Positions 1 to 31,916 of a stretch of 38,563 bases of DNA are shown one piece after another (position 1 is the stretch's first letter; the number at the start of each line of letters is the position of its first letter). Origin of the DNA: a virus; the IMG/VR virus record IMGVR_UViG_3300032265_002162, positions 1 to 38,563 of that record. One strand, 5' to 3'. The position numbers were made by a program, and so were the translations under genes. The notes beneath the pieces were generated by a model. That model saw only the letters and a program-made list of their open reading frames with translations. It was not told the DNA's origin and searched no databases.

Positions 1-28
1 GTAGATAAGGTGACCAAAGGAGTTAGAT

Positions 29-697
29 ATGCATACGTTTCTTGGGCTTGGTAAATTGCGACTTATAGGTATCATTTTACTATCGGTTTTAATACCTATA
101 GGTTGCAATGCATCTGATTGTCCAGACTTATATCCTAATAATAAACCTATTGAAGTTCGTAACACCGTGGAGTTGTGTAATTCTTTTTTTGTTTCGGTAT
201 TTGATAAAAATAATCAAAGAGTTATTTTGGTGTCTGAACATTTAAAACATAACGGTGTTGGTACAGTAACAAGAAAAGATGCTTTTCATTCTGATAATAG
301 AGTGGGTAAAAAACCATCTCCATCACAATACACTAATTCGGGTTACGACAAAGGCCATATGGCACCCGCTGGTGACGCATCAAACGATCAGGAAATGTAT
401 GAAACATTTCTAATGACTAACATGACACCACAAGAACCTACATTGAATAGGCAATCTTGGAAAGAATTGGAAGAACACACAAGAACTTTGTTGGCCAATT
501 CTAAATCGGATATGTATATTATTACTTTTGCCATTTATGCTGATAATAAACAAATAAGTGGCATACCAATACCAACAGCATATTGGAAAGTGGTAACTAT
601 TGATGGTGTAACTAAGTATTATTATGCTCCTAATACACCTCATGCCAAAGTGGTAGAGAACGGTAAAGTACCAATTTTGTCGTTATTGCCTAAATAA
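29..697 (+). CDS. Secreted DNA/RNA non-specific endonuclease (beta-beta-alpha metal, NUC family)
   Basis: A 222-residue protein that should cleave DNA and/or RNA using a single Mg2+. Residues 107-110 read DKGH, the family's DRGH motif with Lys for Arg, so H110 is the expected general base. N140 in the LNRQSW segment fits the metal-binding Asn and E148 the following Glu, at the same spacing as in Serratia nuclease. Residues 9-25 form a hydrophobic export segment after a basic N-terminus. IGCNAS at about 24-29 could be an imperfect lipobox or a Sec cleavage site, so the enzyme probably acts outside the cytoplasm. The ATG is preceded by AAAGGAG at 16-22 with 6 nt spacing. Role in the phage is inferred: nucleotide scavenging or destruction of extracellular or competing DNA. 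Confidence 0.85.
   Translation: MHTFLGLGKLRLIGIILLSVLIPIGCNASDCPDLYPNNKPIEVRNTVELCNSFFVSVFDKNNQRVILVSEHLKHNGVGTVTRKDAFHSDNRVGKKPSPSQYTNSGYDKGHMAPAGDASNDQEMYETFLMTNMTPQEPTLNRQSWKELEEHTRTLLANSKSDMYIITFAIYADNKQISGIPIPTAYWKVVTIDGVTKYYYAPNTPHAKVVENGKVPILSLLPK
690..696 (+). promoter_or_regulatory. Late-promoter-like box CTAAATA
   Basis: CTAAATA followed by AT, the same nonamer seen at other gene junctions in this window. It overlaps the nuclease stop codon, so chance cannot be excluded. It lies just upstream of a sigma70-like promoter at 701-729. Confidence 0.35.
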
Positions 698-700
698 TGG

Positions 701-729
701 TTGACTTTTAACATATTATGGTGTATAAT
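701..729 (+). promoter_or_regulatory. Near-consensus sigma70 promoter for the 43-codon ORF and tmRNA
   Basis: The -35 box is TTGACT (701-706) and the -10 box is TATAAT (724-729), with a 17-nt spacer. This is almost a perfect bacterial housekeeping promoter. Transcription should start near 736, inside or beside a 7-bp hairpin (735-741 with 748-754) that would form at the 5' end of the RNA. The arrangement suggests host RNA polymerase transcribes the downstream ORF and tmRNA, probably early in infection. Confidence 0.75.
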
Positions 730-769
730 GGTTTCCTATTTCGGATAAAATAGGTGATAGGTCGGAAAA

Positions 770-901
770 ATGAAAGTAAAAGAACTAGTTAAGAGATTAT
801 ATAAGGCTGAAATTGAGCACGATATGCCATTGGTAAAAAAACTATGGTATAAATTGCTTAAGAAAAGTCTTAAAGGTAAACATACCGAATCCGTAAAGTA
901 A
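770..901 (+). CDS. Small lysine-rich protein of unknown function
   Basis: A 43-codon ORF from ATG at 770 to TAA at 901. The product is strongly basic (14 Lys) and probably helical, beginning MKVKELVKRLYKAE and ending KHTESVK. No family is recognised with confidence. It is the first ORF after the sigma70 promoter and ends just before the tmRNA acceptor piece, so both would share a transcript. The GG-containing stretch before the ATG is a weak ribosome-binding site. It could instead be non-coding leader of the tmRNA precursor. The amphipathic KLWYKLLKK segment favours a real peptide. Confidence 0.5.
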   Translation: MKVKELVKRLYKAEIEHDMPLVKKLWYKLLKKSLKGKHTESVK

Positions 902-961
902 TTCGTAGAAGTTGTTTGAAAGTTGTTGTGGACATGGATGCAATTTCCATCACCTCCACCA

Positions 962-1023
962 GAAGCATACTACCAAACCGAGTTATCGGTAGCGAAGCCA
1001 AAAGGCCGTAGTATGCTTCTGAT
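962..1023 (+). other. Intervening segment removed from the permuted tmRNA precursor
   Basis: This segment lies between the CCA end of the acceptor piece (961) and the first G of the coding piece (1024). A 13-bp stem (961-973 with 1008-1020) encloses two small hairpins: 977-981/986-990 with loop GTTA, and 997-999/1004-1006 with loop AAAA. The fold would be a three-way junction holding both pieces together until processing. In known permuted tmRNAs the equivalent segment is cut out by tRNA-type end processing. That step is inferred here. Confidence 0.75.
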
Positions 1024-1103
1024 GGGGGTGAAATAGATTCGACATGACAGTAAGTATGACAACGGAGAATCGGCAGAGTAGCCGTAAAAACTATAAATTA
1101 AAC

Positions 1104-1139
1104 GCAAACGATAATAAGTATGCACTTGCTGCCTAATAG
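1104..1139 (+). other. tmRNA proteolysis-tag reading frame
   Basis: The resume codon GCA at 1104-1106 begins ten sense codons that read ANDNKYALAA and end at TAA TAG. With the Ala charged on the tmRNA the full tag would be AANDNKYALAA. It has the same length as the E. coli tag and differs from it at two positions. The C-terminal ALAA is the part read by ClpXP and ClpAP. Confidence 0.88.
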
Positions 1140-1188
1140 GTAAGCGGAGTTTTGATGGGTGAACTTAGCAACAGAATCACCCATCACC

Positions 1189-1222
1189 AAATATTATAAA
1201 TGAACAAATATTATGAATGAAC
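1189..1222 (+). repeat. 17-bp tandem duplication across a start codon
   Basis: AAATATTATAAATGAAC (1189-1205) is followed directly by AAATATTATGAATGAAC (1206-1222), with one mismatch, and a partial third copy follows. The second copy contains the ATG at 1213 of the first oxygenase. The first copy creates a six-codon ORF at 1200 whose stop overlaps that start. Confidence 0.85.
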
Positions 1223-1815
1223 AAATACTATTCAAAGAACCATACATATCTTATTTTCATAATTTATTCACAAATAAAGAATGTGACTATATTATAAAAA
1301 TGAGTGAACGTATTGGTAAATTCAAAAGATCAACGATTCACAACACACAAACAAAATTAAGTGAAATACACGATATGAGAACATCATCAACTTTTGATGA
1401 TGACGAAGGTAATTTTGATTTTGTTAGGTTTAAATCATATGAAACATTGAAGGATAAATTTTGGTATATTAAAAATTTTAATATCAATCATTTTGAAAAA
1501 ACTCAAATGCAAAGATATAATGAAAGTGAATATGTTCTTCATCATTTAGACTGTTTTAATACCGTTAATAAAAAAACTACAGAGAATGATAAAATTGCCA
1601 CATTACTCATCTATTTAAATGATGATTTTGAAGGTGGTGAAACATCATTTAACAAATTAAATCTTAAAATTAAACCAGAAAAAGGTTCTGCTTTATATTT
1701 TGAATTCAAGTATGTTGATGCTTTGAATGGAATGACTAGACACGAAGCATTACCGGTAACCAAAGGAACAAAATATGTAATTACATCTTGGATTAGGAAT
1801 AAACCATATGGATGA
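1213..1815 (+). CDS. 2OG-Fe(II) oxygenase, prolyl 4-hydroxylase type (copy 1)
   Basis: A 200-residue non-haem iron dioxygenase that should couple 2-oxoglutarate decarboxylation to hydroxylation of a peptide or other substrate. The iron ligands are visible: H111-x-D113 in HHLDCF and H177 in RHEALPV. K187 in KGTKYVITSWIR is the expected 2-oxoglutarate-binding Lys. The FEGGETSF turn (139-146) and the PEKGSALYFE strand (155-164) are typical of the P4Hc fold. It overlaps the next gene by 8 nt, and that gene is a paralogue with its ligands at identical residue numbers. No good Shine-Dalgarno is seen. The start lies in a 17-bp tandem duplication. The substrate is unknown; related enzymes occur in other aquatic T4-like phages. 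Confidence 0.85.
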   Translation: MNEQILFKEPYISYFHNLFTNKECDYIIKMSERIGKFKRSTIHNTQTKLSEIHDMRTSSTFDDDEGNFDFVRFKSYETLKDKFWYIKNFNINHFEKTQMQRYNESEYVLHHLDCFNTVNKKTTENDKIATLLIYLNDDFEGGETSFNKLNLKIKPEKGSALYFEFKYVDALNGMTRHEALPVTKGTKYVITSWIRNKPYG

Positions 1816-2455
1816 AGTGATATTAAATCCTGAACCTTTTATGTCCTATTATTATAAATTATTTACAGACCAAGAATGTAATGATGTAATTGAGTATAGT
1901 AAAAAAGAAGAAAATTATTATAGGTCTTTAAATTTTAGTCATGAGTTGAAAGCAGGAGAAATAACAGATTTTAGGACAAGTGATGTTTGCCTCGACAGAA
2001 AAGATAAATTTCTTTTTATGAAAGAAAGAATTTACGAAGCTGTAAAGGATCGATTTTGGTATATTGATAATTTTAATATTAACCACTTTGATCATATACA
2101 AATATTGAGATATAAAGAAGGACAACAATATAAGCCTCATTTTGATTTCTTTAATATGCCAGATAAACACGCAACAGATAATGATAGGATTGCAACCGCC
2201 ATATTGTATTTAAATGATGATTTCTCAGGAGGTGAAACTAAATTTCCTGAGTTAGGACGTACAATCTCACCGGAGAAAGGTTCTTTATTATACTTTGAAT
2301 ATAAATACCTACACGACCTCAATATTTTTACACGGCACCAAGGTATGCCAGTAACTAAAGGAATAAAATATATAATATCATTTTGGATCAGAGCTAATCC
2401 CAACAATTCGCCGGTGACGATCACCGATTTTAACACTCCACAAATAAAAAACTAA
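1808..2455 (+). CDS. 2OG-Fe(II) oxygenase, prolyl 4-hydroxylase type (copy 2)
   Basis: A 215-residue paralogue of the preceding gene, starting inside it with an 8-nt overlap, so translation is likely coupled. H111-x-D113 (HFD), H177 (RHQGMPV) and K187 (KGIKYIISFWIR) keep the complete iron and 2-oxoglutarate site. SGGETKF and SPEKGSLLYFEYKY match the family core. The two copies agree closely in the core (FWYI-NFNINHF, IYLNDDF-type segments) and differ mainly at residues 36-65 and at the C-terminus. That suggests duplication followed by change in substrate-facing loops. Two active copies could form a heterodimer or modify different targets. Confidence 0.85.
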   Translation: MDEVILNPEPFMSYYYKLFTDQECNDVIEYSKKEENYYRSLNFSHELKAGEITDFRTSDVCLDRKDKFLFMKERIYEAVKDRFWYIDNFNINHFDHIQILRYKEGQQYKPHFDFFNMPDKHATDNDRIATAILYLNDDFSGGETKFPELGRTISPEKGSLLYFEYKYLHDLNIFTRHQGMPVTKGIKYIISFWIRANPNNSPVTITDFNTPQIKN

Positions 2456-2513
2456 TAATCGTAATTGGAGACCAAGATAACAGAATATCGTTATCGTAAT
2501 CAAAAAGGAGAGT

Positions 2514-3044
2514 ATGATGTTTACATCTAATTCTAAAAAAGCATTACCAAGTATTTTATTAATAATTTTTTGTTCTGTTTTTATGTATACAGAGCCAACA
2601 TTATCTAATATTATTGTTTCGCAAATAATACAACAGGATGTTTCAGATTCTTTTAATAAAGAATTACAATGTTTAACCGAAAATGTTTATTATGAGGCAG
2701 GTTCGGAATCTTATGAAGGTAAATTAGCCGTAGCACAGGTTACAATCAATCGTGTCAATTCGGGAAAATTTGCTCCGGACATTTGTTCAGTTGTGCATCA
2801 AAAAACAGGAAACACTTATCAATTTAGTTGGGTTGGATTGGTAAATAAGAACGCAAGTAAAGATAAATACCAATGGGAAGAAGCTCAAATAGTTGCCAGA
2901 AAAGCCTTGACAGAATCTAAATTACATGATACAATTGCTAGAACAAATGCATTGTACTATCATGCTGACTATGTAAATCCTGGTTGGAATAACAAAAAGG
3001 TAGTACAGAAAATAGGACGTCATATATTCTATGTCAGCATCTAA
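2514..3044 (+). CDS. SleB-type cell wall hydrolase (candidate endolysin)
   Basis: A 176-residue Hydrolase_2/SleB family protein predicted to cleave peptidoglycan glycan strands. The hallmark TENVYYEAGSESYEGKLAV is at residues 55-73, and E61 in YYEA is the likely catalytic acid. INRVNSGKFAPDICSVV, QFSWVG (103-108) and ALYYHADYVNPGW (146-158) follow as in the family. Residues 11-26 are a hydrophobic segment that would act as a signal or signal-anchor, so export may not need a holin. AAGGAG at 2505-2510 lies only 3 nt before the first ATG but 6 nt before a second in-frame ATG at 2517, which may be the true start. The end overlaps the next ORF by 14 nt. It is the best lysis enzyme candidate in the window. 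Confidence 0.82.
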   Translation: MMFTSNSKKALPSILLIIFCSVFMYTEPTLSNIIVSQIIQQDVSDSFNKELQCLTENVYYEAGSESYEGKLAVAQVTINRVNSGKFAPDICSVVHQKTGNTYQFSWVGLVNKNASKDKYQWEEAQIVARKALTESKLHDTIARTNALYYHADYVNPGWNNKKVVQKIGRHIFYVSI

Positions 3045-3225
3045 AAAAACTTTTTATGATATTAGAGATTATGGAAAAGATGGTGATGTAATGTTAGTAA
3101 GAATACAAGAGAGAGAAAGAATTGAAGGATTAGCTCCTATGCACTCTCAATGTATTATGATGAAAAAAGAAGAACTTGAACAATTAATGGAAGCCGTGAA
3201 CAATTATTATGCCGACAAAAGATGA
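3031..3225 (+). CDS. Small conserved-looking protein, function unknown
   Basis: A 64-residue soluble protein with no signal or membrane segment. It begins MSASKKTFYDIRDYG, has a short beta-like stretch (DVMLVRIQERER) and ends in a charged helix (KKEELEQLMEAVNNYY). It overlaps the hydrolase upstream by 14 nt and the gp33-like gene downstream by 17 nt, so it sits inside a translationally coupled operon, which supports it being real. No family is recognised. Confidence 0.65.
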   Translation: MSASKKTFYDIRDYGKDGDVMLVRIQERERIEGLAPMHSQCIMMKKEELEQLMEAVNNYYADKR

Positions 3226-3430
3226 AGTAAAGCAGTTCAGTATTCTAGTTGAAAAATTGGCGACAGAAAAACGTTTAGGATTAATGGACGCTATTTGCCA
3301 TCATTGCAAAGAAACTGGCCTTGAAATAGAGGTTGCTGCCAGTCTGATATCTTCTGCTCTCAAGGCAAAGATTAAAGAAGAAGCACAATCTCTTAACCTT
3401 ATGAAGAAAACCTCCAAACTGCCTCTATGA
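3209..3430 (+). CDS. 33: Late transcription coactivator, gp33-like
   Basis: A 73-residue protein resembling the short gp33 of aquatic T4-like phages. In T4, gp33 bridges RNA polymerase to the sliding clamp gp45 and activates late promoters with the sigma factor gp55. The visible support is the helical pattern QFSILVEKLATEKRLGLMDAICHHCKE, the segment ISSALKAKIKEEAQSL and the hydrophobic C-terminus, where the clamp-binding motif lies in gp33. T4 gp33 is longer (112 residues). The strongest support is position: it overlaps the next gene by ATGA, and that gene is gp59, exactly the T4 order 33-59-32. The similarity is judged by eye and the protein is short. Confidence 0.65.
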   Translation: MPTKDEVKQFSILVEKLATEKRLGLMDAICHHCKETGLEIEVAASLISSALKAKIKEEAQSLNLMKKTSKLPL

Positions 3431-4029
3431 CTGAAAATACAGGCTTTGCAGCATTTGCCTTGTACAATTCACTAAAGCTGCACTTCACATCAAACTCCTA
3501 CGATTACTTTAAGTATCATGGTAAGACAAATGTTACCAAGGAAAACTTTGCCACTCGTAAAGATAAATATTCTTTTTATAAGTTATCTCGTAAGTTTCAA
3601 TTAGAAGAATTAAAACACTTTTTTATTGCCAATTTTTTACAAGGTGATAAATGGGTAGGTGATATGTTGACACCTGAAGGTGAAGAACACTATAAGAAAT
3701 GGTTAAAAACCACTCAAAGCTTGACTTATATTTTTGAGAACGATATACTGTATTTACTGGACAAATATTCACCAGAAGAAACAATTAAAGTGGTTAGTGG
3801 AAGTTATCCAAAGTTATTAGTGGAAGTACAGCAAGGTAAAGTTGCCATAGAAACCTTGATTATCATGAACGATATTATGGAATTCTTTCCTATGTGGGAA
3901 AAGAAAATTGATGACGATATTATATGGCCAAATTTCAAACTGAAATGTTTGAAATATCAACCTTTCATTGATTATGATAAAAGTAAATTTAAAACAATAT
4001 TAAAAGAAAAAATACATGAACAAGCCTAA
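3427..4029 (+). CDS. 59: Replicative helicase loader, gp59
   Basis: A 200-residue protein that should load the gp41 helicase onto gp32-covered forked DNA. The segment RKDKYSFYKLSRKFQLEEL (44-62), continued by FFIANFLQGDKWVGDM (65-80), lines up well with T4 gp59 (RRDKYFFQKLSEKYKLKEL and AWIGDI). The later IETLIIMNDIMEF and IWPNFKLKCLKYQ segments also have T4 counterparts (FETFILLDSFLNI, VWNNYSIKLKAYR). Length is close to T4 gp59 (217 residues). The start codon overlaps the gp33 stop as ATGA. It is separated from gp32 by a nucleotidase-like gene that is absent at this position in T4. Confidence 0.88.
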   Translation: MTENTGFAAFALYNSLKLHFTSNSYDYFKYHGKTNVTKENFATRKDKYSFYKLSRKFQLEELKHFFIANFLQGDKWVGDMLTPEGEEHYKKWLKTTQSLTYIFENDILYLLDKYSPEETIKVVSGSYPKLLVEVQQGKVAIETLIIMNDIMEFFPMWEKKIDDDIIWPNFKLKCLKYQPFIDYDKSKFKTILKEKIHEQA

Positions 4030-4507
4030 AATCAGTTGCATCTATTTGGACATGGATGGTGTGATTGCAGATTTTGTAAAGCGTTACAAAGAGATATACG
4101 ATATAGAACCAAAAGAAGCGGAAAAACAAAAAAGATTTGACCACTTCTTTGATGATTTTATTGCTAATCAACATTTTGCTACACTTGATTTAATGCCACA
4201 CGCTATGGCTGGCGTTGAATTTCTCCGTAAAGCACCAGTACCCACTCAGATACTTTCTTCTACTGCCAATGAAGAAAGATACCACGACATCTCTAAACAA
4301 AAGATGATTTGGTTACAAAAGCACGGCATTACATTCAATCCTATATTTGTTCCTGGAAAGCGTCACAAACAAATCCACGCAGCACCAGACAAGATTATTA
4401 TTGATGATACAGAGTCCGTGATTGACCAATGGAGAGCCGCAGGAGGCATTGGTATTCTACATAAGGATTGGCCAACAACTTTGGCAATATTGCAGTTATA
4501 TGTTTGA
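4016..4507 (+). CDS. HAD-superfamily 5'(3')-deoxyribonucleotidase-like phosphatase
   Basis: A 163-residue HAD phosphatase. Motif I is YLDMDGVIADF (10-20) with nucleophile D12 and acid/base D14. Motif II is ILSST (79-83). A Lys-rich GKRHKQ stretch (114-119) can supply motif III. Motif IV is IIIDDTESVIDQW (127-139) with D130 and D131. The compact size and the DMDGVIADF start are typical of phage 5' nucleotidases that dephosphorylate deoxynucleoside monophosphates. It overlaps gp59 by 14 nt and precedes gp32, so it is co-expressed with replication genes and probably adjusts nucleotide pools. Other HAD substrates cannot be ruled out. Confidence 0.78.
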   Translation: MNKPKISCIYLDMDGVIADFVKRYKEIYDIEPKEAEKQKRFDHFFDDFIANQHFATLDLMPHAMAGVEFLRKAPVPTQILSSTANEERYHDISKQKMIWLQKHGITFNPIFVPGKRHKQIHAAPDKIIIDDTESVIDQWRAAGGIGILHKDWPTTLAILQLYV

Positions 4508-4532
4508 CAAACGCCTAAATAAATGATATACT
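4504..4532 (+). promoter_or_regulatory. Near-consensus sigma70 promoter for gp32
   Basis: TTGACA (4504-4509) and TATACT (4527-4532) with a 17-nt spacer. The -35 box overlaps the stop codon of the upstream nucleotidase gene. The spacer contains a late-type CTAAATA box (4515-4521), so early and late transcription of gp32 may share the site. The leader to the gp32 start would be about 75 nt. Confidence 0.7.
4515..4521 (+). promoter_or_regulatory. Late-promoter-like box CTAAATA upstream of gp32
   Basis: This matches the late-promoter core of T4-like phages (TATAAATA in T4, CTAAATA-type in aquatic relatives). It is embedded in the spacer of the sigma70-like promoter. T4 gene 32 also has several promoters for different infection stages. 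Confidence 0.45.
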
Positions 4533-4614
4533 AGCAGTTGATTATGAGAAGTAATTTGAAAGTTTTATATATTCCGTTTAATATTCCGTACATACGAAAG
4601 AAAGGTAACACAAT

Positions 4615-5508
4615 ATGAGTTTCGCAAATCTCAAACGCCAATCTGGCAACCTCGATAAACTTAGCAAAGCAATTGAGGCTCTTAATTCAAATCCCGATGC
4701 ATCCGATAAATCAGATAATTTCTGGCGCCCAGCTGTTGATAAATCTGGCAATGGTATGGCAGAAATTCGTTTTCTACCTGCTTCTGAAAAAGATGGTGAA
4801 GATGCTTTGCCTTGGGTTAAAGTATTCTCACATGGATTTCAAGGTCCTGGTGGATGGTTGATTGATAACTGTCTGACTACCAAGAATCAACAATGTCCTG
4901 TTTGTGAACATAATTCTGCATTGTGGAATTCTGGCATCGAAGCAAACAAAGATGTGGTTCGTAAGCAAAAGCGTAAGTTAAATTATATCGCTAACGTCTA
5001 TATTGTTTCTGATCCTAAAAATCCAGAAAATGAAGGACAAGTTAAACTGTTCAAGTTCGGTAAGAAAATCTTTGATAAGATTACTGAAGCGATGAATCCA
5101 CAATTTGATGACGAAACACCAATCAATCCATTTGATTTATGGAAAGGTGCTAACTTTAAATTGAAAATTCGTAAAGTAGAAGGCTATCAGAACTATGATA
5201 AGTCTGAATTTTCATCTGCATCACCATTGTTTGAAGATGATTCAAAATTGGAATCTGTGTATGAAAAAGAATTCTCACTGCAAGAATTGGTTAGTGATAA
5301 AGAGTTTAAGTCATATGATGTTTTGAAACAACGCCTCGATAAGGTGTTAGGTTTAAATGGTGAAGTTGTTGCACCTAAGACTACAGTTGAAACAATCAAA
5401 GAACAAGTTCGGACAGCTCCTAAGAAAGCCGTTGAAGTCGAACCTAGTTTAGCTACAGAGGAAGACGATGATCTATCCTATTTCTCAAAGCTTGCTGAGG
5501 AAGATTAA
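4615..5508 (+). CDS. 32: Single-stranded DNA-binding protein gp32
   Basis: A 297-residue replication, recombination and repair SSB. The N-terminal basic segment MSFANLKRQSGNLDKLSKAI matches the cooperativity (LAST) region. The zinc site H73-C86-C94-C97 is present with spacings 13-8-3 (T4: 13-10-3). The OB core includes WVKVFSHGFQGPGGWLIDN and LNYIANVYIVSDPKNPENEGQVKLFKFGKKIFDKI. The C-terminus is a strongly acidic tail (EEDDDLSYFSKLAEED), the partner-binding domain of gp32. AAAGGT lies about 8 nt before the ATG. A 107-nt leader with a sigma70 promoter and a late box precedes it. T4 gp32 represses its own translation through its leader; no clear pseudoknot was identified here. Confidence 0.95.
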   Translation: MSFANLKRQSGNLDKLSKAIEALNSNPDASDKSDNFWRPAVDKSGNGMAEIRFLPASEKDGEDALPWVKVFSHGFQGPGGWLIDNCLTTKNQQCPVCEHNSALWNSGIEANKDVVRKQKRKLNYIANVYIVSDPKNPENEGQVKLFKFGKKIFDKITEAMNPQFDDETPINPFDLWKGANFKLKIRKVEGYQNYDKSEFSSASPLFEDDSKLESVYEKEFSLQELVSDKEFKSYDVLKQRLDKVLGLNGEVVAPKTTVETIKEQVRTAPKKAVEVEPSLATEEDDDLSYFSKLAEED

Positions 5509-25349: not shown

Positions 25350-28300
25350 ATGTCCCTGAATTTTAATGTTGACCCATATTACGATGATTTTGATCCTACA
25401 AAAAATTATCATAGAATTTTATTTAAGCCAGGATACGCAGTTCAGGCCAGAGAATTAACACAATCTCAAACTATTCTTCAAAATCAAATTTCCAGATTTG
25501 CATCAGCAATTTATTCTCAAAATACACCGGTTTCTGGTGGACAAGTTACAACCAATTTAAAATGTAATTATATTAAACTTTTATCATCATATGCTGGTAT
25601 TACAATTACCGCATCTAGTTTTTTAAATCAAACAATTACTGATTCTACTGGTACTATTGTAGCTCGAGTGATCAAAACAGCGGAAGCAACTATTGCTGGC
25701 GATCCTCCTACTTTAATTGTTAGTTATCTTTCCGGCACACAGTTTTCTGATGCTATGACTGTGTACATTAATAGTGGCACAACAATAAATGCAGTTGCAA
25801 CAACAATTGGTGTTTTGGGTGGAACAACATCTGTTGGTTCTTCTTCTGTTGCTTCAATTGCTGCTGGTATATTTTATGTTGTTAACGGATATAACACAGT
25901 CACTAATGCTGACGGTACCACATCACAATATTCAATTGGTAATTTTACTTCTGTTAGTCCACAAACTGTTATTCTAGACAAATACGATAACTATCCAACA
26001 TTGCGTGTTGGTTTAAATATTGTAGAAAGCGTCACAACATCTTCATCTGATATTTCTTTATTGGATCCTGCTACGGGCGCTTCCAATTATCAGGCTCCTG
26101 GTGCTGATCGATATCAAATTTCTTTAAATCTTGAAACAAGACCTTTGACATTAGGTAACGATAATGGTTTTATTGAATTGTTACAAATTAGTGCTGGTCA
26201 AATTTTAAAACAAACAGATACTACAGTATATTCCACGATTGATGATTATTTTGCTAAACGCACTTATGATACTAATGGTGATTTTATTGTTAATAACTTT
26301 AATATTACTCCTGCATCTAACGCAATCAATTCAGCAACATATGATATTGGTGTTGGTCCAGGTATTGCTTATGTTCATGGTTATCGTATTGAAAATCAAT
26401 CACAAATTAAATTAAATAATCCAAGAGCAAGAACAACATACACACAAAATAATAATCCTGTATTTGTTGATTATGGTAATTTTGTTTATGTCGATACTTT
26501 AAAAGGTTTATTTGACGTAACACAACTATCAGCCGTTGATTTGCATTGTGTACCTTATGCTAACGTGGCTACCGCCAACACTACAGTATATAATTCAACC
26601 AAAGTAGGTTCTGGTTTTATTCGTAATTTAGTATATGATCACAACTCAACGGATGCAAATACGCTATCTTATGTTTATCGTGCTTATCTAACAGATATTT
26701 CATCAAACACTTTATCAAGTAATGCGGCATCAGCAACAGCATATACAATTTCTTTATATGATACTAATGGCACATTTTCAAATGTGGCTAATGCTTATGT
26801 TGGCACACCTTTAACTATTACTTCCGGAACATCTGTTGGTGATTCTAGAATTGTTACACAGTATACTCCTGCAACTAAAACATTTACTGTAGCTCAACCA
26901 TTCTCTATTACGCCAGATACCACATCACAAGTATCCTTAAAATTTGCCACAACAAATATTGTATCGATGGCAAATACTTCTGGTTTAACAATTAACGCCA
27001 AGGCCAACATTAACGCTGGCAGCAAATCAACTTCTGTTGTTGGCGGTGCGGGCGGTGTTTCAATTACTCAAACCAATATTTCAAATCCAGGTTCAACCGA
27101 ATTACTTTTCAAAATTGGTTATCCATTTTTGGCAGGCGTTAACGGATCATCGTATACTTCAACTCAAGTATTCCGTAGTAAATCATTTTCAAATGTGGGT
27201 GGTTCGTCACAGATTCAAATTACTTTACCTGTTGGTATTCAAAATATTGTTGGATTCGGTGGTGGAACAGGATCACTTTCACTATCATCAATTGAACAAA
27301 ACTATTCAATCATCTGTACTTCTAATTCAGGATCACCAACAATCAACGTAGGTGACGTAATTCCATTTGGTCCTGGTCTGACTTTTGGTGGTGCAAACAC
27401 AAGAACTGTTTCTGTTTCTACCGATAAGAATACATTAACACTCACCGCACAAGATACCGCCAACGTAACAACAGGTATGACTGTTTCAATCATTGCTAAA
27501 GTAAATGTGGTAAATGGCGATGACACCAACCATATTGTTCGTGCTAAGAATTTGTATACAGCAAACACCAACACGGTTTCAACTTCTGGTCCTGATGGCA
27601 TTATTAATAGTAATACCTATATTGACCTTACAAATTGCCAAGTTTATATTCCTTTTGCAGGATTGGTAACTCCAGGAAACATTCAATCGCTTTATGTAAC
27701 TGACGTAAAACGTATTAGTAAAATTATTGATACCGGTTCAGCTAACACAGCGCCGATTGTATCTATGTTAACCAATGCAGCATACGATATTACTTCACGG
27801 TATAATTTTGATAATGGTCAAAGAGATAACACATATGACCACGCAAGAATAACATTGAAACCTGGTCAGCCTCAACCAAAAGGTAATATTTTAATTCTGT
27901 TTGATTTTTACAAACATACCGGTGGTGATGGTTATTTTACTGGTTTGTCCTACTTGTCACCAATATCTACTAAGCCAGAATCTTATGGTTCAATACCAAC
28001 TTACAGAGCTAATGATGGACTCGTATACAATCTCCGTGACTGTTTGGATTGGAGACCAGCAAGGAAAAATGGTGTAGCTTCAAGAACATATGAATATACA
28101 GGAAATCCAAGTACAGATGATACCGGTGTTTATATTCCACAAGATTTAACAAATTTTGTAAGTAATTATTCTTATTATCTTGCTCGTAATGATCTATTAG
28201 TTATTAGTAAAGATAAAACATTTAAAATCATTAGTGGCGTTCCTTCTGTAAATCCTTCGTTACCAACTGCACCGGATGGATCACTAATTGTTTCAAATTT

Positions 28301-31300
28301 ATACCATGATCCGTACACAGCTTATCTTCCATCGGAAGCACCTAACGGAATATTGCCTAATCTTTCCGTTCAAGCAGTTAAACATCAGCGATTTACAATG
28401 CAAGACATTGCAGATTTGCAATCAAGAGTTAATAATATTGAATATTATACAAGCTTGTCGATGCTTGAACAGAAAACACAAACATTACAGGTAACTGATT
28501 CTAATGGTTTAAATCGTTTTAAAAATGGTATTTTGGTGGATTCTTTTTCTAGTTATGCAACAGTAGATACTGGTAATCCTGACTTTAATTGTTCAATCGA
28601 CACAATCGGTAAAATAATGTCAGCACCACAATACGTTACAAATTATCCATTACAATCTTCTGTTTTGTTAAATGCTTATAATAATTTAAGTAATACGGCA
28701 TTAAGTGGATTAGGATTTGGTATTAGTACAATTAACCAACAAACTAATATTTTTTCTTTACCTTACACACCAACAGCAATTATTAATCAACAATTAGCAT
28801 CAAATACAGTCAATTTAAATCCGTTTACAACGCCTTTATTTGAAGGTTCTATGACTGTTAATCCTCCAATGGACAATTGGGTTGATAATACGACAGCACC
28901 TGATTTATTGTTGGTGGATCCTAATTTACAAGTATATCAACAAAGCAATACACTCAATACATTAAGTGTTGGTAATTGGCAAGTTATTCCAGGAAGTCAA
29001 TACTCAACCAGTTCAACATATTCTGTCGTGAATCATGGTGCATTTAATGGTCCGTTTGGTGATGCAGTTGGTTATACCGCTACTTCTACACAAACATATG
29101 CAAGTCAGTCACAAAAAACTGTTTCTGGTTATTGGTCGCAGTTACCAGCAACATACTCTACAAATAATGGATTCATTACCAATATTTCTATTCAACCATA
29201 TATTCGTGCTCAAGATTTAGTGATTCTCGCTGGATCATTAAAAATTAATACACCGTTAACAACATCATTTGATGGTACAATTGTTGATCAGTATATTAAT
29301 TTACCAACAGTTATAGAACTAACTGGAGTAACAGGAACATTTGCTCGTGGAGATTTAATTGGTTATGTTTCTTCGGGTAACTGGAATACTTTAGGCAAAG
29401 TAGTTGATGTTTACAATTATCCAAACACAACAAATACTCGATTGTATGCTTTTGTTTCTAGAATTTCTATGACAGCGGTAACATTATCAACAATTCAAAA
29501 TGGTAAGTTTAATTCTGCTGGAGTTTATACCGGTACAACAGCATCAGGTACTCCACAAGCAGGTACGATAAACGGCGTAACTTTGAATATGTCTGGCGGA
29601 GTTATTTCAGCAAACAATGGAACATCTTCAAATGTTACTGGTGGTGGAACATACACAACCGGTGTAACTCAATTTGTTATTAGTCCTTTGGCTTCAAACA
29701 CTAGCAACTTCTATACTGGTTCAACAATTAGTATCACATCTACAAACGGAACAGCAACAACGACACAAACTGCTACCGTAACAGCATACGATGGACCAAG
29801 CAAAACAGTAACAGTAAATACTGCAGTTCCAATTTCACTTGGATATAATTCTAATGTTGGTTCAGAAATAAGATCCGTATACAGAATTACTGGAAATAAA
29901 AATTGGTCTAACAATACAAGTTATTTGACCGGTATTACAAATGGTGTAGCACCACAAATTTCAACAAATGAAGCTGGTAATTTTTCTGCCACATTCTCAA
30001 TACCGGCATCAATATTCCAAAACGGAGCTAGAATTTTCCGTGTAGATAATAGAACAGTACCTTCAGACGGTGGAAGCTCTGCTACGACTTATGCTTCAGC
30101 AACATTCACAGCATCTGGATTATCAACAACATCACAGAAACTTGACTTTTCTGCTTCTATTGATTCGGCACCTAATACATTTGTAGCAACACAGTATAAA
30201 TCAAATCAATTAGTTGCTTCAACTTTTTCTTATGCGCCTTATGATCCTGTTGCTCAAACATTTATTATTGACAAAGCAAATTATCCAAATGGCGCCTTCC
30301 TGTACTCGGTTAAATTGTTTTTTCAATCTAAACCAACCACATCGATGGCACCAGTTAATTTGTGGGTTCATGCAACAACTAACGGATATCCAAATGGTAA
30401 ATCATTAGATTATTCTAGTGTTTCTTTGACACCAGATCAAGTTAATGTATCATCCAATCCACATTATTTGGATTCAACAACATATACTGAATTTGTATTC
30501 TCTGCTCCAGTATTCATTCAACCAGGAGTGTTGTATGCTTTTGTTGTAAAATCTCCTTCTACTGAATACAATCTTTATACTGCTGCTCAAGGTTCAACAG
30601 CAATTTCGTCTACTGTTAAGAATTTACCAACTGATGTTACGCCAACAACAATCACTAAAATTGGTACAACACCATATGTTGGTTCATTATTCAAATCGCA
30701 AAATGCAATTACATGGGTTGCCAATCCAGCAGAATCAATGATGTTTGTTGTCAATCAAGCTTTGTTTAATACCTCTGTTAATCCTAAGCTTCAGTTTGTA
30801 TTGCCTGCTGGATTACCAACAAGAAAATCTGTAATTAATGTTGTTCATAATTCGGTTCAACCAAATACAGTTGTTAATTTGGATAACACTTTATCTTCAT
30901 CTAATGTTATCGTTGACGCATTTAATATTACAACAACGGATTTATTACCAACATCAACAAGTATTAATTATACTTACAATGCTACACTATCTTCTACTGG
31001 TGCTTTAGCCGGAGAAACATCAATTCAACCAGGTCGATATGGTTCACCAACATTGAACAATATTTTATTGAATGATGGATACGGAACACGAGTTTTGAAT
31101 TCTAATTCTAGTCAATCATTCTTTGTATATGGTACTTTATCTTCTACTGATCCAAATGTATCTCCAATTATTGCTGACGATGGATTAAGTGTTTATAATG
31201 TAGATTGGATTATTAATAATTTACCACTATCAAACACACAAATTACATTGGTGTCTGGCGGAACAGGCTATAACACAAACACCACATCGGTTACTGTTTC

Positions 31301-31916
31301 TGCTCCAGATTTACCTGGCGGAGTTCAAGCTGTTGCTGCAGCAAACGTAGCCAACGGCTCTGTACAATCTGTCTATGTAACTTCTGGAGGTTCTGGTTAT
31401 TTGGCTACGCCAACAATTACGATTGTTGATGCTAATACTGCTCCAGGAACAGGCGCAACAATAAATACTGTTTCTGAATTTTCTCCTCGTGGTGGTAATG
31501 CTTTAACACGATACATTACTAAGAAAGTTGTATTGGCACCAGGAAATGATTCGGGAGATTTAAGAGTATTTGCAACAGCATATCGTCCTGTTGGAACAAA
31601 CATTTATGTGATGTATAAAATTTTAAGTTCTGCTGATACATCATCTTTTGATGCTCAACCATGGCAGTTAATGACACCAATCGTTAATCAAGCTTATTAT
31701 TCAAATAGTTATGGTGCTACACAAGAGATTGAGTATGCTCCAGGTATCAATAATGTGGCCAATAATTATATTTCTTATACAAGTTCAAACGGATCAACAT
31801 TTACTAACTTTATTCAATTCTCAATAAAAGTTGTTATGACAACAGCAGATAATACTAATGTTCCATATTTGTCTGATATAAGAGCTTTGGCATTACCACC
31901 GGGAACAGGAATTTAA
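25350..31916 (+). CDS. Giant virion protein with DUF4815-like N-terminus
   Basis: A 2188-residue protein, the largest in the window. The N-terminus FNVDPYYDDFDPTKNYHRILFKPGYAVQARELTQSQTILQNQI is the hallmark of DUF4815-type virion proteins found beside baseplate genes. The rest is beta-rich and Ser/Thr/Asn-rich, with few charged segments: a domain around 875-960 (DNTYDHARITLKPGQPQP, ILFDFYKHTGGDGYFTG), a receptor-like region around 1600-1760 (YDPVAQTFIIDKANYPNGAFLYSVKLFFQSKP) and a GGTGY-type module near 1965-2040. AAGGAA lies 8 nt before the ATG. T4 gp9/gp10 occupy this position, so it may be a peripheral baseplate or fibre-network protein. The exact role is unknown. Confidence 0.72.
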   Translation: MSLNFNVDPYYDDFDPTKNYHRILFKPGYAVQARELTQSQTILQNQISRFASAIYSQNTPVSGGQVTTNLKCNYIKLLSSYAGITITASSFLNQTITDSTGTIVARVIKTAEATIAGDPPTLIVSYLSGTQFSDAMTVYINSGTTINAVATTIGVLGGTTSVGSSSVASIAAGIFYVVNGYNTVTNADGTTSQYSIGNFTSVSPQTVILDKYDNYPTLRVGLNIVESVTTSSSDISLLDPATGASNYQAPGADRYQISLNLETRPLTLGNDNGFIELLQISAGQILKQTDTTVYSTIDDYFAKRTYDTNGDFIVNNFNITPASNAINSATYDIGVGPGIAYVHGYRIENQSQIKLNNPRARTTYTQNNNPVFVDYGNFVYVDTLKGLFDVTQLSAVDLHCVPYANVATANTTVYNSTKVGSGFIRNLVYDHNSTDANTLSYVYRAYLTDISSNTLSSNAASATAYTISLYDTNGTFSNVANAYVGTPLTITSGTSVGDSRIVTQYTPATKTFTVAQPFSITPDTTSQVSLKFATTNIVSMANTSGLTINAKANINAGSKSTSVVGGAGGVSITQTNISNPGSTELLFKIGYPFLAGVNGSSYTSTQVFRSKSFSNVGGSSQIQITLPVGIQNIVGFGGGTGSLSLSSIEQNYSIICTSNSGSPTINVGDVIPFGPGLTFGGANTRTVSVSTDKNTLTLTAQDTANVTTGMTVSIIAKVNVVNGDDTNHIVRAKNLYTANTNTVSTSGPDGIINSNTYIDLTNCQVYIPFAGLVTPGNIQSLYVTDVKRISKIIDTGSANTAPIVSMLTNAAYDITSRYNFDNGQRDNTYDHARITLKPGQPQPKGNILILFDFYKHTGGDGYFTGLSYLSPISTKPESYGSIPTYRANDGLVYNLRDCLDWRPARKNGVASRTYEYTGNPSTDDTGVYIPQDLTNFVSNYSYYLARNDLLVISKDKTFKIISGVPSVNPSLPTAPDGSLIVSNLYHDPYTAYLPSEAPNGILPNLSVQAVKHQRFTMQDIADLQSRVNNIEYYTSLSMLEQKTQTLQVTDSNGLNRFKNGILVDSFSSYATVDTGNPDFNCSIDTIGKIMSAPQYVTNYPLQSSVLLNAYNNLSNTALSGLGFGISTINQQTNIFSLPYTPTAIINQQLASNTVNLNPFTTPLFEGSMTVNPPMDNWVDNTTAPDLLLVDPNLQVYQQSNTLNTLSVGNWQVIPGSQYSTSSTYSVVNHGAFNGPFGDAVGYTATSTQTYASQSQKTVSGYWSQLPATYSTNNGFITNISIQPYIRAQDLVILAGSLKINTPLTTSFDGTIVDQYINLPTVIELTGVTGTFARGDLIGYVSSGNWNTLGKVVDVYNYPNTTNTRLYAFVSRISMTAVTLSTIQNGKFNSAGVYTGTTASGTPQAGTINGVTLNMSGGVISANNGTSSNVTGGGTYTTGVTQFVISPLASNTSNFYTGSTISITSTNGTATTTQTATVTAYDGPSKTVTVNTAVPISLGYNSNVGSEIRSVYRITGNKNWSNNTSYLTGITNGVAPQISTNEAGNFSATFSIPASIFQNGARIFRVDNRTVPSDGGSSATTYASATFTASGLSTTSQKLDFSASIDSAPNTFVATQYKSNQLVASTFSYAPYDPVAQTFIIDKANYPNGAFLYSVKLFFQSKPTTSMAPVNLWVHATTNGYPNGKSLDYSSVSLTPDQVNVSSNPHYLDSTTYTEFVFSAPVFIQPGVLYAFVVKSPSTEYNLYTAAQGSTAISSTVKNLPTDVTPTTITKIGTTPYVGSLFKSQNAITWVANPAESMMFVVNQALFNTSVNPKLQFVLPAGLPTRKSVINVVHNSVQPNTVVNLDNTLSSSNVIVDAFNITTTDLLPTSTSINYTYNATLSSTGALAGETSIQPGRYGSPTLNNILLNDGYGTRVLNSNSSQSFFVYGTLSSTDPNVSPIIADDGLSVYNVDWIINNLPLSNTQITLVSGGTGYNTNTTSVTVSAPDLPGGVQAVAAANVANGSVQSVYVTSGGSGYLATPTITIVDANTAPGTGATINTVSEFSPRGGNALTRYITKKVVLAPGNDSGDLRVFATAYRPVGTNIYVMYKILSSADTSSFDAQPWQLMTPIVNQAYYSNSYGATQEIEYAPGINNVANNYISYTSSNGSTFTNFIQFSIKVVMTTADNTNVPYLSDIRALALPPGTGI

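Follow-up and report, generated by a model that had tools for sequence, protein, structure and literature searches.

A circularly permuted tmRNA gene of the two-piece type in a T4-like phage

A short region near one end of a viral contig raises the question of whether a T4-like phage carries its own circularly permuted tmRNA gene, and whether such a virus may take over trans-translation in its host. The window, by which we mean the whole stretch of DNA analysed (38,563 nucleotides, IMG/VR record IMGVR_UViG_3300032265_002162), is a 38.6-kb record of the T4 superfamily with gp32, gp33, gp59, endolysin, tail tube, gp2, gp4 and baseplate genes. The isolates that match it best are cyanophages (about 57% at gp32), and its GC content is approximately 32-37%. 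A sequence-only reading had proposed a permuted tmRNA gene at 905-1186, based on a T arm, an acceptor 3' strand and a CCA end lying 5' of a segment that starts with GGGGGTG, and each of these elements is present where that reading had put it.

The covariance models agree with this proposal. RF04321 (tmRNA_permuted) matches the window at 901-1136 with 117 bits (cut-off 47, E 2.2e-22) over model positions 1-213 of 213, and RF01850 (beta_tmRNA) matches at 856-1186 with 89.4 bits (cut-off 84, E 7.7e-26). Both scores exceed their cut-offs, which bears out the proposed permuted ssrA gene order and removes the objection that no tmRNA model would recognize the region. The gene is larger than had been supposed, because pairing of the acceptor piece begins at 901. 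The tmRNA-specific program ARAGORN reported no tmRNA in the window at its default threshold, whereas at thresholds of 95, 90 or 85% it returned exactly this gene as the only one in the window ([869,1227], tag ANDNKYALAA followed by two stops). The default threshold is passed by 28 of 32 relatives that encode the same tag. The likely cause of the miss is the pair that closes the T loop, which is A-U in the window only and G-C in the other 22 of 23 aligned sequences; the change is compensatory and leaves the window copy with a weaker T stem, just under the default threshold. The window tmRNA has a minimum folding energy (MFE) of -95 kcal/mol (z -5.9). Matches to the wcaG RNA at 671-768 (23 vs 42 bits) and to mir-3118 were below cut-off and are regarded as chance. 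The gene is laid out as follows:

901-961, + strand: tmRNA acceptor piece with the 5' side of stem 2, T arm, acceptor 3' strand and encoded CCA (RF04321, covarying stems; predicted ends)
934-950, + strand: T arm ATGGA-TGCAATT-TCCAT (23 sequences: 100% of cells paired, two-sided changes in 4 of 5 pairs)
951-957, + strand: acceptor stem 3' strand CACCTCC (7 bp with 1024-1030)
962-1023, + strand: intervening segment with predicted excision (MFE, covarying stem pairs)
1024-1186, + strand: tmRNA coding piece with the acceptor 5' strand, GATTCGACA region, stem 2 partner, tag frame and 3' hairpin (RF04321, RF01850, 23-sequence alignment; predicted ends)
1071-1084, + strand: hairpin CGGC-AGAGTA-GCCG occupying the pseudoknot 1 position, candidate first stem (one pair covaries U-A/C-G/G-C)
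1104-1139, + strand: tag reading frame ANDNKYALAA, then TAA TAG (sequence; identical tag in 32 viral contigs)
1154-1185, + strand: 3' hairpin GATGGGTGA/TCACCCATC of the coding piece (two-sided compensatory changes in 6 of 8 pairs, 98.9% of cells paired)

The acceptor 3' strand is followed by A958 and by CCA at 959-961, and the coding piece begins with GGGGGTG at 1024. The acceptor stem described earlier, 7 bp including a G3-U70 pair, forms between 1024-1030 and 951-957, and the conserved-sequence region of the coding piece is GATTCGACA at 1036-1044. The tag frame opens with the resume codon GCA, just preceded by TTAAAC; the ten tag codons occupy 1104-1133 and the double stop 1134-1139, again as first read. 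In the spacer (962-1023), a 12-bp stem of GAAGCATACTAC and GTAGTATGCTTC is predicted from MFE and covariation to prolong the acceptor stem together with the CCA region, and it encloses the inner hairpin CCGAGTTATCGGTAGC (978-993). Within the window's family, the support for pseudoknots consists of the covarying first stem at 1071-1084.

Conservation of the RNA structure was assessed in an alignment of 23 distinct tmRNA sequences, window included, in which 59 base pairs were scored. Standard pairs occupy 96.4% of the cells, compared with 86.8% in column shuffles (0/500 reaching the observed value) and at most 56% when the structure is slid along the alignment. Changes on both sides were found in 29 of the 59 pairs, against 13.8 in column shuffles (0/500). 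Covariation involves the T stem, the acceptor stem, the 3' hairpin and stem 2, which joins the two pieces and in which 10 of 19 pairs covary. The acceptor stem shows a compensatory U-A to C-G change in contigs L011, L021 and L031, while G3-U70 is U-G in 23/23 sequences (alignment columns 60/171); this pair, the CCA, the resume codon and the tag are invariant within the family. The spacer hairpin CCGAGTTATCGGTAGC is near-universal in the 23 sequences, whereas its enclosing stem varies. Genes in L002-L033 look like mosaics in which the same 3' halves follow differing 5' halves, as in L002 and L003, which suggests recombination inside the tmRNA gene around the invariant tag DNA.

The genomic surroundings are equally conserved. 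The following neighbours serve as reference points:

2514-3044, + strand: endolysin / cell wall hydrolase (PF07486; conserved neighbour by synteny)
3209-3430, + strand: gp33-like late transcription coactivator (PF16805, phrog_254; a neighbour in phage Melnitz too)
3427-4029, + strand: gp59-like helicase loader, survey anchor and conserved neighbour (phrog_269)
4615-5508, + strand: gp32-like ssDNA-binding protein (phrog_224; 57% identity with gp32 of cyanophage P-SSM2)

A degenerate tag scan of IMG/VR retrieved 32 other contigs with ANDNKYALAA, and the permuted layout together with an RF04321 match was found in 32/32 of them. The order tmRNA - endolysin - gp33 - gp59 - (nucleotidase) - gp32 is repeated in nearly all of these contigs within the reach of each; the sequence of L007 ends just beyond the tmRNA gene. 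Genes for 2OG-Fe(II) oxygenases are often inserted into the tmRNA - gp32 neighbourhood of the relatives. In L024 and L028, which are independent assemblies, the window's order nuclease - tmRNA - 2OG oxygenase - endolysin - gp33 - gp59 - gp32 recurs. Because the neighbourhood is repeated in independent assemblies, host contamination and assembly chimerism, which the first reading had named as possible refutations, are ruled out. A DNA similarity search with 856-1190 against phage records gave no match, hence there is no close isolate among them. Taken together, the covariance-model matches, the covariation within the family and the conserved synteny identify 901-1186 as a circularly permuted tmRNA gene of the two-piece type, carried by a T4-like phage.

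Other genes of the window deserve mention. The tmRNA gene is adjoined by a DNA/RNA non-specific endonuclease gene (29-697, PF01223) with an N-terminal stretch resembling a lipoprotein signal, and the homologue of this gene is apparently truncated in L025. Two tandem genes for 2OG-Fe(II) oxygenases, with 49% identity between them, occupy 1213-2455, a site at which relatives have zero, one or differently placed copies. The tail region contains an ORF of 2188 aa with a DUF4815 domain (25350-31916).

How widespread the gene is was determined in contigs chosen by gp59 similarity alone (n=50, with the stretch starting at least 3 kb before gp59). A permuted tmRNA, exactly one each, is present in 41/50 of these contigs (82%), a non-random sample taken from the top of the similarity list, and all placeable copies (40/40) precede gp59 by 0.9-3.7 kb, in the same orientation. 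Judging by this survey, the permuted tmRNA is near-core in a large uncultured group of T4-like phages. No tmRNA was found in the other 9/50 contigs, several of them fragments, and thus the gene appears not to be essential in every relative. These nine contigs and the weaker T stem of the window copy would fit a host-derived passenger that brings no benefit and is undergoing loss. Such a passenger is scarcely credible and was already disfavoured, given the extensive compensatory change, the invariant tag, the fixed syntenic place and the 82% occurrence. The tags in the gp59-anchored contigs (e.g. ANDEKFALAA, ANDSAYRLAA, ANDSQFALAA, ANDESYALAA, ANDESAYLMAA, ANDEKYALAA) are variable in the middle, and nearly all keep the AND... 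start and an LAA or MAA end.

Upstream of the gene, two further features are predicted:

701-729, + strand: predicted sigma-70-like promoter TTGACT-17-TATAAT (11/12 consensus matches only)
770-901, + strand: 43-aa micro-ORF MKVKELVKRLYKAEIEHDMPLVKKLWYKLLKKSLKGKHTESVK, its stop codon abutting the acceptor piece (homologues, codon-change ratios)

Promoter-like sites with 9-11/12 matches, mostly TTGAC(T/A) or TTGCCT-17-TATAAT/TACAAT, precede the tmRNA by 42-274 nt in 28/32 relatives. A sigma-70 site in a T4-like phage suggests early transcription by the host polymerase. The micro-ORF has homologues in L004, L008, L010, L017, L020, L022, L026, L027, L030 and L032, with non-synonymous/synonymous ratios of 0.16-0.28. 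This type of micro-ORF is absent in L024, L025 and L028, where the promoter-like site lies 42 nt upstream of the tmRNA and no conserved micro-ORF intervenes. In most other relatives, a micro-ORF of 35-43 codons is found between promoter and tmRNA, and its stop codon coincides with the opening bases of the acceptor piece. Two unrelated types occupy this slot, MKVKEL... (43 aa) and the membrane-like MPSKDCV... (36 aa); examples whose stop codon falls on the border of the acceptor piece are window 770-901 and L003, L005, L007, L011 and L013.

Phage-encoded permuted tmRNAs are already known, and the window gene is a further example; the novelty implied by the first reading is therefore smaller than suggested. 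By 2021, 53 of 133 distinct tmRNA structures were of the two-piece type in a set of 402 tmRNA-bearing phage genomes, and 50 of the 53 were marine or aquatic (PMC9004378). The tmRNA database holds 79 phage sequences (PMC11915505). The tmRNAs of an earlier survey, from the mycobacteriophage Bxz1 group and Bacillus phage G, are likewise phage-encoded and belong to other phage groups and hosts; no T4-like aquatic phage was listed in that 2014 survey (PMC4131195). The present analysis adds a tag family of 33 members with its covariation, the finding that the gene is retained at a single locus almost as a core gene, and the private tag.

The closest parallel is the Methylophilales phage Melnitz, whose two-piece tmRNA gene lies directly upstream of its late-transcription coactivator (PMC9004378). 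Melnitz is also a T4-like marine phage with a permuted ssrA (MZ577097), in the order ssrA - gp33 - gp59 - (thyX) - gp32, and in the window, as in a Melnitz-type locus, the tmRNA is found upstream of gp33-gp59-gp32 on one strand. The Melnitz gene shares the RF04321 family (113 bits), but unlike the window its best model is of the alpha type (106.7 bits), its tag is ANDNYVPVDYALAA instead of ANDNKYALAA, and its spacer of approximately 142 nt contains a 54-codon ORF with a Shine-Dalgarno sequence, whereas the window has a 62-nt hairpin. A glutamine riboswitch follows directly downstream of the Melnitz tmRNA, whereas none (RF01739) was detected in window 1-5000 at E<=1; this riboswitch is common beside Melnitz-type ssrA genes and does not define them (PMC9004378). 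Among bacteria, the permuted tmRNAs of Burkholderiales (RF01850) share with the window the gene order, the ACCA-(stem)-TGAT-GGGG spacer helix and a 10-aa AND...ALAA tag. They differ in that the window barely exceeds the RF01850 cut-off (89.4 vs 84 bits) and has a conserved inner spacer hairpin, which none of the Burkholderiales examples read possesses, as well as a tag that no searched bacterial genome encodes. Alphaproteobacterial two-piece tmRNA (RF01849, Caulobacter) shares the gene permutation, and its function in Caulobacter is cited as demonstrated in PMC3985003. Of the relatives that encode the window's tag, several fit the alpha_tmRNA model and others the beta model.

The Melnitz spacer ORF is one of many. 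In other phage permuted tmRNAs, window excluded, spacers of 75-240 nt contain ORFs led by a Shine-Dalgarno sequence. Such ORFs are found in 18/68 long spacers, some of them homologous to each other and some possibly chance, versus 6.8 (sd 2.3) in interior shuffles, none of which reached the observed number (0/200). The loci include L059:956-1334 (-), L132:1901-2280 (+), L068, L121, L125, L162, L173, L178, L205, L232, L245, L270 and Melnitz (L368:46096-46260). L059 and L132 each match RF04321 and alpha_tmRNA. A comparison of their 69-codon spacer ORFs gives 33 synonymous substitutions and 9 non-synonymous ones (ratio 0.07), and 29 of these 42 differences fall at third positions, a pattern that points to strong purifying selection. 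Several spacer ORFs end at the TGA within the conserved TGAT that precedes GGGG. Eight spacers (L162, L173, L178, L205, L245, L157, L235, L267) encode a tryptophan-rich, membrane-like microprotein (MF-x-x-W-H-W-x-Y-x-W-G-I...), for which tblastn against phage records gave no match. Seven readable bacterial permuted spacers in a Burkholderiales sample measure 5-61 nt. Our literature search found no description of protein ORFs within permuted-tmRNA spacers, nor of such gene nesting. We tentatively propose a compact cassette in which a near-core, early tmRNA with virus-private tags follows a micro-ORF that ends at its acceptor piece, and in which the spacers of relatives, window excluded, hold a small protein gene; one transcript might then yield either tmRNA or microprotein by processing.

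The tag had been considered a possible identifier of the host. ANDNKYALAA had 0 exact matches in the GTDB r220 species genomes (84,980 species; one genome per species, contigs >3 kb). As positive control, a broader scan of the same genomes for AND[NKDE]K[YF]ALAA yielded 95 matching stretches, for instance in Gallionellaceae, Photorhabdus and Cupriavidus; those with a readable gene form are almost without exception one-piece genes, and ANDNKYALAA is absent from those of the 95 that were retrieved. As the tag occurs in none of the searched bacterial species genomes, it cannot name the host, and phage tmRNA tags are unsafe for host prediction in general.

A private tag also bears on what the RNA does. 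It could belong to an interfering tmRNA that titrates host SmpB or EF-Tu, or competes with the host tmRNA, and thereby weakens or diverts trans-translation; the tmRNA of mycobacteriophage DS6A, which has a tRNA-like domain only, resembles a strong inhibitor of host tmRNA (PMC4131195; PMC11915505). Interference is nonetheless unlikely, because the tag frame, the ALAA end, the resume context and the double stop are all conserved and would be needless for an inhibitor. Alternatively, the phage might overwrite the tag of its host and thereby speed up or slow down the degradation of tagged proteins, or divert them to another protease. The absence of ANDNKYALAA from the searched bacterial genomes and the several tags of neighbouring phages, e.g. 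ANDSAYRLAA and ANDESAYLMAA, would be in line with overwriting, but the window family retains the ALAA end, which is recognised by ClpX/ClpA (PMC3985003), and some related phages share the bacterial tags ANDEKFALAA and ANDEKYALAA. A private tag is thus no general need, and overwriting appears distinctly improbable.

We consider it probable that the locus is a functional phage-encoded permuted ssrA gene, which is expressed, processed, charged and used for tagging via host factors, thereby sparing ribosomes. A search for SmpB genes in 20 phage records, each of which may be a fragment, found none, with control matches in 10/14 genomes; host SmpB would accordingly be needed, and it is most likely used for ordinary trans-translation with ClpXP-type (ALAA) tagging. 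Host RNA polymerase would transcribe the tmRNA and the micro-ORF early from the 701-729 promoter, host tRNA-processing enzymes would remove the 62-nt intervening hairpin, and the resulting acceptor and coding pieces would stay joined through the acceptor stem and stem 2. Guided by G3-U70, host AlaRS would charge the RNA, which with host SmpB and EF-Tu would enter ribosomes stalled on broken mRNA. ANDNKYALAA would be added to the stalled product, the ribosome would be freed at the double stop, and the ALAA end would pass the tagged fragments to host ClpXP-type proteases. The likely benefit to the phage is that ribosomes are kept circulating while host (and phage) mRNA is degraded, and the phage takeover of trans-translation raised at the outset is plausible in this form.

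For T4-like phages, these results mean that a phage-borne tmRNA is more than an oddity of a few isolates: it is a near-constant trait, present in 41/50 of the gp59-anchored contigs at one syntenic place. This near-constancy makes it plausible that ribosome rescue is a limiting step of infection, which can be tested in the cultured relative Melnitz.
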